A DNA stretch of 54,509 nt from Pseudomonadota bacterium. GTDB lineage: Bacteria; Pseudomonadota; Alphaproteobacteria; Rickettsiales; SXRF01. Each line of letters starts with the position of its first letter. The stretch's first letter is position 1. The notes below the pieces were generated by a model. It ran no database searches. It was given only the letters and a program-made list of their open reading frames with translations, and was not told where the DNA came from. The position numbers were made by a program, and so were the translations under genes. Location of the stretch: NCBI GenBank assembly GCA_028873525.1, contig JAGWIM010000004.1, positions 1 through 54,509 of the forward strand. Direction: 5' to 3'. Of this stretch, positions 2,876-18,742 are shown in pieces.

Positions 2876-4942
2876 ATGGGTAATCAATTGTTTAGTAAAG
2901 ATAAAAAAGAAAATAAGGATGTGCCGGATCAGCCCGGCGCCCGCTTCGGCGCCTATGGCGTGTCCGCACAGCCATTTGAAATACAATGGAAAAACGCAAA
3001 AATAGATAGCGATACCGGACGCCCGTGGAAAGACAGCCGGGCCAACCGGCTTGCCATCCGCACTTTCTCGCGCGGCGTGCTGGGAGCGCTGGCGTTCGCC
3101 GGCATGGGCTGGTATGCGCGCGGCAACACCGCTACCAACAAAGGTTTCTGGCGCGGCATGGGCGAATACGACCCGCTCAAGCCCGGCAGCATGGAGTGGA
3201 AAAAACCGCTGACGGTAATCGCCAAAGTTGTCGATACGGTGATAGGAAAGCCGATTAGCTATACAATTCATGCGATTACAGGAGACGCCGCCCGCGCCGA
3301 ACGCTGGGTGCGTTTCCGGCCTTCGGCCAAGGAATTTTCCGGCGTCAATGGCCGATCGCTCGGCAGCGAGGTGGTGGGCGTCACCGCCGACTTTGCGGCG
3401 ATGAGCATTGGCGACGCGCTGGGGCGCGACCTCGTCGATCTGGCCGATCCAAACCTCAAAAAACCGTGGCGGGATGAAGAGGGGCATTTAAGCGCCGGCA
3501 AAGCGCTGAAATCAATGGCTAAAACCGGCTGGCGCTATGTCAGTTACAATGCCGGCGAAGACTGGGCGGTGGCGTTGCCATATGTATATTTCATGCGCAC
3601 CTTCAAACATGGGCTGGGCGCGATCAGCCCCGGCTTTCGTTACGACTCCGACCGCAACCTCAACGGCGGAAGCCTGAAAATAGACAGTAATTCCAACGTT
3701 ATCGGCAATTACAACAGGGTCGGCATCGTTGACCTGCAGGCGCGGTTTACCGCCTACAATATGGGCACGCTGCTCTACCGCGAATGGTATAACTGGGCGG
3801 CGGACAGATGGTGGCATAAAACGCCGACGCGGCTGTATGGCGCGCCTGACGCGCCGGTGGAAACGAAAGACCGCAGCATAGCGGGCAACGCGGCGTACCT
3901 GGCCAAGTGGGTGGCGCGCGGCGTCATCAAGGGTGGCGTCTACATGACGCCCGCCGTGCCGTTTTTCTGGATCACGCGCACGCCGCAGTCGAAATACAAG
4001 GGCATGTTCATCGATCCTGAAACCAGGGAGGTGCTGGGGTATCTCGACCCCAAAGACAGCCGCCCGCAAGCGGTACACGCCAACGAGGTCGGCACGCGTT
4101 ACGACAGCGGCAACCATGAGCAATATTTTTCGTCCCGGACAAAGGTATTCCGCAACCGCTACAGCCGGGACATTCATAACTGGGAACAGGTGCCCGGGGC
4201 TGTTCCGGCGGTTAATCCGCATAAAAACCCAAGCTTCGACGCCTATGCGAAACATTTCGGCGCCGGCGATGCCCTGCTGAACGGCATTGGCTGCTCCAGC
4301 AATTACATACGCAAGAAATTCCATCATTTTCCCAATGAGTTGAAACGTACCTTCAATTTGAAACCCGGGCAGAAAGATTTCTTTGAGAATCCCAGCACCT
4401 TCTGGGAATATAAGCGCAATTCCGACCGCTACTGGAACGCGGCCGTCTCCTACACGCCGTACTTCATGGCCAAGACCGAGTTCGCCAATATGTGGGATAC
4501 CGGCAAGACCGACCTGGCAACCGAGCGCCTGATCGACGGCGCGGCCAGCCTGAACTGGGGCGAATTCAAGGCGGGAGCCGGAGAGTTATGGGCGTCGCTG
4601 ACCGGCAAGCCTTTCGCCGATCCGGCGCGTGAAGTCGAGGCGCTGCGGCGCATTATCATCGATCCGTCTTCCGCCGACGAAGCAATCGATAAAACCGAAA
4701 AAGAGGTCGCGGCGAAAGAGGCGGAACAAAAAAGGGACAGGTTGCTCGCGCAGAAAAAAAACGCCGCTCACGTACCGGCCATAAAAACGGACGATCTGCC
4801 GTGGCATAACCGCGTCTTCAGCGGGCCGAAGCCCGACACCTTCGCCCAAACGGTCGGCGGCAAGCCGATCAGCCATTCCGAACGCGAAGAAATGCGCAAG
4901 TTACTTGAAGAAATAGAACCGCCGACGAGCAGCCGGCACTAG
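2876..4942 (+). CDS. Large unknown protein, 688 residues
   Basis: I do not recognise a family. The N terminus is charged and Lys-rich. A hydrophobic Gly/Ala segment follows at about residues 64-82 (FSRGVLGALAFAGMGWYARG), and the body is rich in aromatic residues (many WY, YW and RY pairs). The C-terminal 90 residues are charged, with a likely Glu/Lys coiled coil (about 605-630) ending in a Glu-rich tail. No catalytic signature stands out and there is no signal peptide. The gene diverges from the duplicated 792-residue protein and stands alone to its right. The start is uncertain: the ATG at 2876 has only weak ribosome-binding sequence. Base composition drops slightly in the first 100 bases and is then typical of the window. 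Confidence 0.75.
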   Translation: MGNQLFSKDKKENKDVPDQPGARFGAYGVSAQPFEIQWKNAKIDSDTGRPWKDSRANRLAIRTFSRGVLGALAFAGMGWYARGNTATNKGFWRGMGEYDPLKPGSMEWKKPLTVIAKVVDTVIGKPISYTIHAITGDAARAERWVRFRPSAKEFSGVNGRSLGSEVVGVTADFAAMSIGDALGRDLVDLADPNLKKPWRDEEGHLSAGKALKSMAKTGWRYVSYNAGEDWAVALPYVYFMRTFKHGLGAISPGFRYDSDRNLNGGSLKIDSNSNVIGNYNRVGIVDLQARFTAYNMGTLLYREWYNWAADRWWHKTPTRLYGAPDAPVETKDRSIAGNAAYLAKWVARGVIKGGVYMTPAVPFFWITRTPQSKYKGMFIDPETREVLGYLDPKDSRPQAVHANEVGTRYDSGNHEQYFSSRTKVFRNRYSRDIHNWEQVPGAVPAVNPHKNPSFDAYAKHFGAGDALLNGIGCSSNYIRKKFHHFPNELKRTFNLKPGQKDFFENPSTFWEYKRNSDRYWNAAVSYTPYFMAKTEFANMWDTGKTDLATERLIDGAASLNWGEFKAGAGELWASLTGKPFADPAREVEALRRIIIDPSSADEAIDKTEKEVAAKEAEQKRDRLLAQKKNAAHVPAIKTDDLPWHNRVFSGPKPDTFAQTVGGKPISHSEREEMRKLLEEIEPPTSSRH

Positions 4943-4972
4943 AGGATTTCGGATTAATCCTACGCCACGCCC

Positions 4973-5080
4973 CCGTCATTCCCGGAGTTTTGCTTTTGCA
5001 ACATTCCGGGGAATCGAAAATACATCCGGCTATACTGCGCCGCCGGGTCGCCTCGCCGCCATGCTTCCCGCAATGACGGC
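4973..5080. repeat. Intergenic palindromic repeat
   Basis: The ends are inverted copies: CCGTCATTCCCGG at the left and CCCGCAATGACGG at the right, about 80 bases apart, with a smaller CATTCCGGGGAATC palindrome inside. It fills the gap between two convergent genes. The GTCATTCCCG ends are typical of common bacterial intergenic repeats, and similar ends occur at 9491 and 44444. Confidence 0.6.
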
Positions 5081-16407: not shown

Positions 16408-16549
16408 GTTTTTCTCACAAATTCTACTATGCCGGGCAAACGCTTCGTTTTTTGCGCTTCCGTTGCTCACGTACTAAAGTGTACGCTGCGCTGCGGTTCT
16501 CGAAAACTTCGCTTTTTGCCTCCGGCCTAGCGAATTTTTGAGAAAGACC
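16408..16549. repeat. Long imperfect palindrome (about 142 bp)
   Basis: The ends are near-identical inverted copies: GGTTTTTCTCACAAATTC at the left and, read on the other strand, GGTCTTTCTCAAAAATTC at the right. The arms continue inward (GCCGG and AACGCTTCG against GGCCGG and AAGCGAAG). At the centre is CGTACTAAAGTGTACG (16470-16485). The whole could fold into one long hairpin or be a MITE-like mobile unit. It lies directly upstream of the DUF2610-like gene's Shine-Dalgarno sequence, so it would be in that gene's leader RNA. No transposase is present. Confidence 0.65.
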
Positions 16550-16655
16550 CCTGGATGTACGTGTAACAGTATAACATGAGAGTGTTACGGAATGATGACA
16601 GGAAGCGCATTTTTACGGTCGCCGGCAAGAACAGGAAATGTTAAATATCAGAGTA

Positions 16656-16955
16656 TTAGTGCTGCGGCCGGCCGAACTTGAAATTATCGGCATAGGCCTT
16701 GGCGACCTGACGGCGCGTGTTGGGGTCGTAAACCTCGTGCGGGATGCCGCGTTTTTTAGCGTAGGCGACGGCGGCATCTTTCGTAGGAAAATAAAGGCGG
16801 ATTTCCTGTTTCATGTCGGTCATGCCGTTCCAGCCCATGAGGCTGTCCACCGGCGACGGCTGATCGGGCGAGAATTCAAGCAGCCATTCCTTCATGCCGG
16901 CCTTGCCGGATTGCATGGCGGTTTTGTCGGGGCGGTAGATGCGGGCTTTGGTCAT
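16656..16955 (-). CDS. ETC complex I subunit, NDUFS4-like
   Basis: This 99-residue protein matches the alphaproteobacterial homologue of the mitochondrial 18-kDa accessory subunit of NADH:ubiquinone oxidoreductase. The start ARIYRPDKTAMQSGKAG and WLLEF, then a central LYFPTKDAAVAYAKKRGI segment and a C-terminal YADNFKFGR are typical of the family. It probably binds the peripheral arm of complex I on the cytoplasmic side. It stands alone, far from any nuo operon in this window, as is usual in alphaproteobacteria. A short fragment of a TTAGTCGATAGTC-type repeat lies just upstream (16963-16990). Confidence 0.93.
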   Translation of the reverse strand: MTKARIYRPDKTAMQSGKAGMKEWLLEFSPDQPSPVDSLMGWNGMTDMKQEIRLYFPTKDAAVAYAKKRGIPHEVYDPNTRRQVAKAYADNFKFGRPQH

Positions 16956-17011
16956 GGTAGAGGTGTTAGTTGTTAGTCGATAGTCTTGGCATATCTGTTT
17001 ACACTACGTAA

Positions 17012-17176
17012 TTAGGACACAGGGAAAGGACCTGATAATATACAACCTTTACCGTATTGAGATTCTAACATTGCTCTTGCATTTAGTGAATTGTCAGCCT
17101 GAATCATGACTTGTTGGGTGACAAAACTAGCGCCGCTTTTTATTTTAATTGTAGCTTTATAAGTTTTAGCTTGCAT
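17012..17176 (-). CDS. Short AT-rich ORF, 54 residues
   Basis: This unannotated small frame starts MQAKTYKATIKIKSGASFV, continues QQVMIQADNSLNARAMLES and ends GKGCILSGPFPVS. AGGG lies about six bases before the ATG. The composition is balanced and protein-like, with a beta-hairpin-type start and one amphipathic helix. I have a general impression of similar tiny proteins in phage and plasmid genes, but cannot name a family. It lies 28 bases after the 53-residue ORF on the same strand and probably shares its promoter at 17408-17436. Confidence 0.5.
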   Translation of the reverse strand: MQAKTYKATIKIKSGASFVTQQVMIQADNSLNARAMLESQYGKGCILSGPFPVS

Positions 17177-17204
17177 AAATACCCTAAAATTTAAAATGTG
17201 TGCA

Positions 17205-17366
17205 TTATAGGTGCTGCTTCATCCGCTTAAGTTGTGTTTGTAACTTTTTTATAAACACATCCCTAGCCTTGAGCTTCGCTTCATACTTAGCCTCAATAGC
17301 TGCTATTTGCTGTTTAAGCAATTTTTCTCGGTCATTAAGGTTTTTATCACCCGGATTGCGTGCCAT
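17205..17366 (-). CDS. Small basic coiled-coil protein, 53 residues
   Basis: The frame encodes MARNPGDKNLNDREKLLKQQ, then alternating Ala/Glu/Lys residues, ending TQLKRMKQHL. Residues 10-50 form a plausible single amphipathic or coiled-coil helix with strong positive charge. AGGAG sits seven bases before the ATG, and a good sigma-70-like promoter lies 45-70 bases upstream. The role is unknown; a nucleic-acid-binding or scaffold function is only a guess. Base composition is far lower in GC than the chromosome around it. Confidence 0.55.
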   Translation of the reverse strand: MARNPGDKNLNDREKLLKQQIAAIEAKYEAKLKARDVFIKKLQTQLKRMKQHL

Positions 17367-17407
17367 ACATCTTCTCCTATTTTAGAGTTTATTACAAAAT
17401 TTATTTT

Positions 17408-17436
17408 AAAATACAAAATAGATTATCTATTGTCAA
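17408..17436 (-). promoter_or_regulatory. Promoter with operator-like palindrome in the spacer
   Basis: Read leftward there is a perfect -35 TTGACA (17431-17436), a 17-base spacer and TATTTT (17408-17413). The spacer contains almost all of a perfect 15-base palindrome, AATAGAT-T-ATCTATT (17417-17431). A repressor bound there would block RNA polymerase, an arrangement common in phage and plasmid control regions. It faces the two small leftward ORFs; the C39-like gene begins 33 bases away in the other direction. Confidence 0.6.
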
Positions 17437-17468
17437 GCGCCTTAACAACGTAGGACGTGAAGGGCATT

Positions 17469-17831
17469 ATGAAACTCATAAGACAGAGGTTAGAGAATGA
17501 TTGCGGCGTTGCCTGTGTAGCGATGCTTACGGGAGTTCCATACCGTGTTGCTAAGAGAGCTATCTTTGGAAGCGGCATTGTCGGACTCACCGACGTCCCC
17601 GAAATCAAAGCTGCATTGGCTGATCTAGGCCGATTACCGGCAAATAGGCTGATTCCGCTTAGGGGTCGTGACTACCGGACATTAAATGGCTTGGCTTTGC
17701 TCAAGGTAAACATTAGATCCAATCGTAAGTGGCACTGGGTAGTTTGGAGTGGGAAGAAATTGCTTGATCCTAAAGTACCTCCATACCAACCCTCTCGGCT
17801 TCGCCCTGTATCATACCTGAGTGTAGAATGA
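17469..17831 (+). CDS. Small stand-alone C39-like cysteine peptidase
   Basis: This 120-residue protein has the plan of the papain-like peptidase C39 domain: Q6 then D11-C12-G13 (RQRLENDCGVACVAML), H89 in KWHWVVWSG, and D100 in LLDPK. Together these give a Cys-His-Asp triad with its oxyanion-hole Gln. In ABC exporters this domain cuts double-glycine leaders; here there is no membrane or ATPase part. The ATG at 17469 has AAGGG at 17460-17464 about four bases upstream; a GTG at 17457 is less likely. The substrate is unknown. It lies in an AT-rich island with two small ORFs, which could be a peptide system, but no double-glycine leader is visible. Confidence 0.65.
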   Translation: MKLIRQRLENDCGVACVAMLTGVPYRVAKRAIFGSGIVGLTDVPEIKAALADLGRLPANRLIPLRGRDYRTLNGLALLKVNIRSNRKWHWVVWSGKKLLDPKVPPYQPSRLRPVSYLSVE

Positions 17832-17845
17832 ACCGAAGTTTTCCC

Positions 17846-18742
17846 CTATGGGGGGAGGAAAAATTTGATGCTATGCACGCAGGTAAAGGCGATGCGGTTT
17901 TTTCGCGCGCGGGAAAACTGCCGCGCCGATGCAACGATATGCCGCACGATGCGCTCGCCCAGTGAACTCGCGCCGAATTCGGGGTGCCACTGGACGCCCA
18001 TGATGCACTGCCCGGCATAGTCGCCGTCCGGGTCGGACTCGATGGCTTCGGCGAGATAACCCATCGTGCCGTCGGGCAGCCGCACCGTGTCGGTGACGGC
18101 AGAGACGCAAAGCCCCGGCGCGATGATGTCCAGCGCCTGGTGATGCAGGCTGTTTTCCATCAGCACCGTTGGGCAACCGCTTCCGCGCACGAACGGCATC
18201 CTGATGCCGCGCGCGATTTGCGCCAGCGCCGTGTCCTCCTTGATAACGATCGGCACGACCGGGATGTGCAGCGCGATGCCGCGCCGCGCCTGCATGTGCC
18301 TGTCGCTGCCCACCATGTCGGGGATGTGCTGGTGCAGCGTGCCGCCGAGCGAGACGTTGATGCGCTGCATCCCGCCGCAGACGCCGAGCAGCGGCATTTT
18401 CGCCGCCAGCGCCGCCTGCAAGATGGCTTCCTCGTAACGCGCGCGCGCCGCGCCTTTGGGAATGGCCATTTCGCTTCTCGTATGCGGATGGCATTTCCGC
18501 TTATGGCTATCTTCCGGATAACGATGGGCATAGCGCTTGGGATCGATATCGAGACTGTTGCCCATCAGCACCAGCGCGTTGATGCGGCCGAGGTCGCGGG
18601 CGACGGCGGCGGTCAGACTCTTCACCTGGCTGGAGAGGAATGCCGCCGCCGCTCCTGCCTCGCGGATCTGCCGCATCATGGCGCGCACCGATTTGGTATG
18701 CGCGGACGCGCCGCTGACGCCGATGGTGCAGATGGGTCTCAT
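17846..18742 (-). CDS. Class I glutamine amidotransferase-like hydrolase (peptidase C26)
   Basis: This resembles gamma-glutamyl-GABA hydrolase (PuuD) and relatives, which cut gamma-glutamyl amides. The nucleophile elbow GVCGGMQRINVSLGGTLHQH is complete, and the catalytic His-Glu pair is present in MGVQWHPEF. The 298-residue length is slightly above the family norm because of a C-terminal extension (RKNRIAF onwards). The ATG at 18742 was chosen over a GTG at 18760; neither has a clear ribosome-binding site. Its 3' end is separated by 14 bases from the convergent C39-like gene. The true substrate is not evident: no polyamine or GABA genes are nearby. Confidence 0.9.
   Translation of the reverse strand: MRPICTIGVSGASAHTKSVRAMMRQIREAGAAAAFLSSQVKSLTAAVARDLGRINALVLMGNSLDIDPKRYAHRYPEDSHKRKCHPHTRSEMAIPKGAARARYEEAILQAALAAKMPLLGVCGGMQRINVSLGGTLHQHIPDMVGSDRHMQARRGIALHIPVVPIVIKEDTALAQIARGIRMPFVRGSGCPTVLMENSLHHQALDIIAPGLCVSAVTDTVRLPDGTMGYLAEAIESDPDGDYAGQCIMGVQWHPEFGASSLGERIVRHIVASARQFSRARKNRIAFTCVHSIKFFLPP

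Follow-up and report, generated by a model that had tools for sequence, protein, structure and literature searches.

A predicted stand-alone C39-type cysteine peptidase of a phage- and plasmid-borne family in an acquired island of a Rickettsiales genome

C39 peptidases are normally fused to peptide exporters and cut after Gly-Gly. The window analyzed here, a 54,509-nucleotide stretch of a Rickettsiales genome, holds an AT-rich island in which an earlier note had recognized a divergent 120-residue C39-like protein with C12/H89/D100, two small ORFs of 53 and 54 codons, and a palindromic operator-promoter (Table 1). The locus raises the question of what such a peptidase does when no exporter is in sight, and whether it forms, as had been proposed, a small peptide-processing or phage-derived module together with the two small genes.

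Table 1. Positions of the island and its features in the window
Feature	Positions	Strand	Remarks
Whole insertion	16956..17845	.	Flanked by the NDUS4-like gene (16656-16955) and the puuD-like gene (stop at 17846)
54-aa protein	17012..17176	-	Sparse conserved family; motif ADN-NA-M-E-QYGKG-I-SGP; predicted beta-beta-alpha-beta
53-aa charged ORF	17205..17366	-	Probably helical; without relatives
Putative promoter of the two small genes	17408..17436	-	TTGACA-17-TATTTT; consensus scan
7+1+7 palindrome, possible operator	17417..17431	.	AATAGATTATCTATT; inside the promoter
Stand-alone C39-like cysteine peptidase, 120 aa	17469..17831	+	ATG 17469 to stop 17831; Gln6, Cys12, His89, Asp100
Hairpin, possible two-way terminator	17838..17862	.	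Between the peptidase gene and puuD, which converge here; z -1.1, not better than chance

The peptidase gene is present in a single copy in the genome. Its product scores 17.8 bits against the Pfam C39 family (PF03412), below the gathering cut-off of 22 and over the first 22 residues, and 32 of 42 relatives match the same family at an E value of up to 0.01. The profile of the peptidase family reaches ComA at an E value of 1e-7 and the ComA peptidase domain at 3e-7 over profile positions 2 to 114, as well as the peptidase domains of PCAT1 and LahT and the toxins Cpe1 (9l5u) and CdiA-CT (8ssm). The AlphaFold model of the window protein (pLDDT 92.5) is closest to the exporter domains, with Z scores of 13.1 for PCAT1, 12.8 for ComA, and 12.7 for LahT (range of 12.6 to 13.1 across these), followed by Cpe1 and CdiA-CT (Z 10.9), and a structure search returned viral models corresponding to several uncharacterized phage proteins and to one protein named peptidase C39. 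According to the alignment of the 42 relatives, Cys12, Gly13, Ala15, Ala18, Met19, and His89 are invariant, while Gln6, Tyr25, Asp100, and Pro101 are conserved in at least 90% of the sequences, which bears out the triad read earlier. Close relatives show dN/dS ratios of 0.07 to 0.22 (unsaturated pairs only), indicating purifying selection. With a predicted C39 fold and a Cys-His-Asp triad with an upstream Gln, as in PF03412, the window protein is, as modeled, an intact and stand-alone C39-type cysteine peptidase; the earlier C39-like assignment is upheld by the fold, the family profile, and the conserved residues.

The C39 domains of the ABC exporters ComA, PCAT1, and LahT share with the window protein the fold (Z of about 13), the triad with its Gln, and the length of the core. 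In contrast, the window protein, at about 20% identity, is not N-terminal to an ABC exporter and has neither an exporter nor a double-glycine leader or substrate nearby. It lacks a transporter and any fused domain, and the N-terminus leads directly into the catalytic core, which makes a cytoplasmic location probable. Neither a PF03412 match nor a C39-ABC exporter was detected in the genome, and no double-glycine leader family was detected with TIGR01847, a 15-position model of low power. No credible promoter was found for the peptidase gene, the sole nearby rightward site overlapping the start codon, and its expression is therefore uncertain.

Relatives of the peptidase, mostly stand-alone proteins of 110 to 180 aa, were found in 165 plasmid records, 19 viral contigs, and 29 genome contigs, and even the nearest share no more than about 42% identity with the window protein. 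Plasmid and chromosomal rows are mixed in the family tree, where the window protein is placed with low support. Two phage families without assigned function are matched by the 42 relatives, phrog_31365 by 16 and phrog_4049 by 13, and the window protein itself matches phrog_31365 over residues 3 to 110 (E value of 0.0015); unlike members of these families, the window copy is chromosomal and lies outside a recognizable prophage. No relative in a cultured phage was found by tblastn. Across 385 genomes of the class, a single match besides the window was both strong and stand-alone (G221, E value of 2.5e-16), and most of the others fall in open frames of about 700 to 1000 aa, the size of C39-ABC exporters. 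Plasmid copies are located in replication modules and near phage-like genes; phage copies adjoin helicase, nuclease, ParB-like, and terminase genes; the copies at loci L028 and L029 are near transposase-like genes (PF13340 in L028). The peptidase family is thus carried by phages and plasmids, and this part of the earlier proposal stands, while the single peptide-processing module does not. Clustering of the neighbors at 55 loci revealed no common partner gene, only the C39 gene itself being shared beyond groups of related plasmids, and a fixed partner was rejected on these grounds. Homologues of the small genes were not found beside the peptidase relatives.

Some of these loci have an arrangement of their own. 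In a Gynuella MAG (L043:1-5000), a C39-like gene is found among the cassettes of an integron-like array with attC-like repeats at 187-294, 637-741, 1498-1606, 3123-3229, 3598-3666, and 4911-4975. In two Sphingomonadales (L034:4047-8306 and L038:4397-8366), the C39-like gene directly follows the carboxyltransferase gene of a biotin-dependent carboxylase, and in L038 it sits between the carboxyltransferase and biotin carboxylase genes.

The island is confirmed as AT rich, with the GC content falling to 0.35 to 0.36. The GC3 values of the peptidase (0.45), 54-aa (0.26), and 53-aa (0.42) genes compare with 0.76 to 0.84 in the five flanking genes used as a reference. In the window, 890 bp (~0.9 kb) separate the puuD-like and NDUS4-like genes, whereas in a genome of the same genus (G001) the two nearly adjoin, with 22 bases between the end of the puuD match and the start of NDUS4. 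Searches of 54 relatives, 15 belonging to the same family, returned homologues of neither the peptidase nor the 54-aa protein. Given this empty site and the absence of homologues, the island is an insertion in the window's lineage, and it represents horizontally acquired accessory DNA. The spot itself is variable, since in another genome of the genus (G002; L075:4776-5660) a low-GC (0.45) TPR-like gene takes the place of puuD. Most of the other genera read in this family have the order topA, puuD-like, rnr, NDUS4-like, and DUF2610; rnr (RNase R, identified by eye from sequence) separates puuD from the NDUS4-like gene in L077, L079, L080, and L081 and is absent from this position in the window's genus. 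A block of 102 bases in the intergenic region that separates the DUF2610 and NDUS4-like genes (16450-16551) may be a dispersed repeat, with three more partial copies in the genome (77 to 96%) and one in a relative (L067). As for the route of entry, a transposon or site-specific insertion was rejected, as the window has no tRNA and the island no flanking target-site duplication. An integron cassette was likewise rejected, since the simple attC pattern that is present in L043 is absent from the island. A structured RNA was rejected in the absence of an Rfam match of note.

The two small ORFs are present as described, leftward and with Shine-Dalgarno-like sequences upstream; those of the three island ORFs read AGGAGA, AGGG, and GAAGGG. 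In dinucleotide shuffles of the 513-bp stretch, one ATG-initiated ORF of at least 53 codons occurs in 16% and two occur in 1.6%. The earlier expectation that such frames would be conserved proved right for the 54-aa protein, with relatives at 53 to 56% identity on a Bradyrhizobium plasmid and in G314 and at 48% in G642, 24 positions being invariant across the first three sequences aligned. It does not hold for the 53-aa frame, which has no detectable relative and whose matches are generic helices. The 54-aa protein has no credible profile match, and the structural matches that might suggest a binder of the T7 Gp2-like or the ribosomal L20a/LX-like type are weak (Z of 6.9 to 7.9 with a single-sequence model, Foldseek E values above 0.1). 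Weaker relatives in two genomes (L083:1498-2141 and L084:1477-2075) both adjoin related 145-aa genes; L083 has a recombinase-like frame nearby, and the pair is perhaps a small mobile element.

The leftward TTGACA-17-TATTTT promoter is the best of four sites in 1.5 kb and is weak if judged by its consensus match only, since shuffles give 2.1 ± 1.3 sites. The perfect 15-base palindrome is also there, although not wholly within the spacer as had been stated: its 7-base arms and central base occupy 14 spacer bases and the final base of the TTGACA hexamer, an A. Allowing two mismatches still gives a single occurrence in the window (0.05 expected), and some 7+1+7 palindrome turns up in 4% of the shuffled 513-bp sequences. 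Taken singly, the small ORFs and the palindrome each have a non-negligible probability of arising by chance. In the stretches read, the 54-aa homologues lie at unrelated sites with no C39 gene near them. For want of such co-occurrence, a single module of small proteins and peptidase was rejected, and the two small genes seem to have arrived independently of the peptidase. They would constitute separately acquired cargo with its own promoter, possibly under the control of a repressor.

The reading that we favor, and hold to be reasonably probable, is that of an acquired island bearing a stand-alone C39 peptidase from a phage and plasmid family, probably cytoplasmic and cutting a specific protein, with the small genes as separate cargo. 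The peptidase would be an endopeptidase in which Cys12, His89, and Asp100 are catalytic and Gln6 acts as the oxyanion residue. Cleavage would most likely occur after a pair of small residues such as Gly-Gly, in a specific protein of the host or of a competitor, and we infer that some benefit, to the host or to the element, would follow from it, the peptidase itself probably being accessory cargo of mobile elements. Cytoplasmic cutting is favored for the following reasons. The Cpe1 toxin, an exporter-free protein of the same fold, cleaves GyrB and ParE after GG at LHAGGKF in the cytoplasm (PMC12136450), the host GyrB carries this LHAGGKF site, and phage peptidases of patchy occurrence have been put forward as acting on proteins of the host (PMC7824862). 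By analogy with Cpe1, the window peptidase most likely cuts a specific cytoplasmic protein.

Alternatively, the island could be what is left of a decaying prophage or plasmid, with no function at present, which we regard as unlikely. It would fit the single copy, the lack of an integrase, transposase, or structural gene beside the peptidase gene, and the missing target-site duplication; however, the frame is intact, the ribosome sites are in place, and all catalytic residues and the conserved core are kept, which an unconstrained gene at such divergence would rarely retain. A toxin-antitoxin or toxin-immunity pair, in which a Cpe1-like toxin is neutralized by an autoregulated small protein, appears more doubtful still. 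The peptidase shares with Cpe1 (T6SS) and CdiA-CT, both papain-like cysteine protease toxins, a fold and a catalytic domain able to work within bacterial cells in the absence of an exporter, the cleavage site of Cpe1 is present in the host, and the small operon is divergent and has a palindromic possible operator. Yet the window protein has no PAAR, Rhs, or CdiA delivery domain and no recognized immunity gene, and it is not known as toxic. The two adjacent ORFs, considered as possible immunity genes, do not accompany its homologues elsewhere; those of the peptidase and the 54-aa protein were never together in the loci examined, no common partner gene was found, and GC3 differs between the genes. 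There is also no PADLOC-DB match, for which reason a defense system was rejected as well. Finally, a peptide-maturation module, in which the C39 protein cleaves the double-glycine leader of one of the small proteins and an exporter is encoded elsewhere in the genome, is very improbable despite the nearness of the fold to ComA, PCAT, and LahT and the adjoining small ORFs, because substrate and exporter are both missing: neither small protein contains Gly-Gly, the genome yielded neither PF03412 nor leader matches (the latter with the low-power model), and 54-aa homologues occur where no C39 gene was found.

Returning to a cytoplasmic peptidase carried as mobile cargo, a more speculative extension, to which we give little weight, is that the family consists of counter-defense or host-takeover peptidases of mobile elements, whose C39 Gly-Gly pocket would cut cytoplasmic targets; examples might be GyrB/ParE-like sites or, in bacterial ubiquitin-like conjugation systems, the C-terminal tails. 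Neither the fold nor the set of catalytic residues is new, while no function seems to have been described for the stand-alone mobile family in the literature searched, which excluded most subscription journals. A fold regarded as the part of peptide exporters that does the processing appears here repeatedly without an exporter, its catalytic residues being intact, in phages, plasmids, and an integron. If cytoplasmic proteins are cut, mobile elements would have in this peptidase a widespread and as yet unassigned means of editing the proteome of their host, and its small size makes the targets directly testable.
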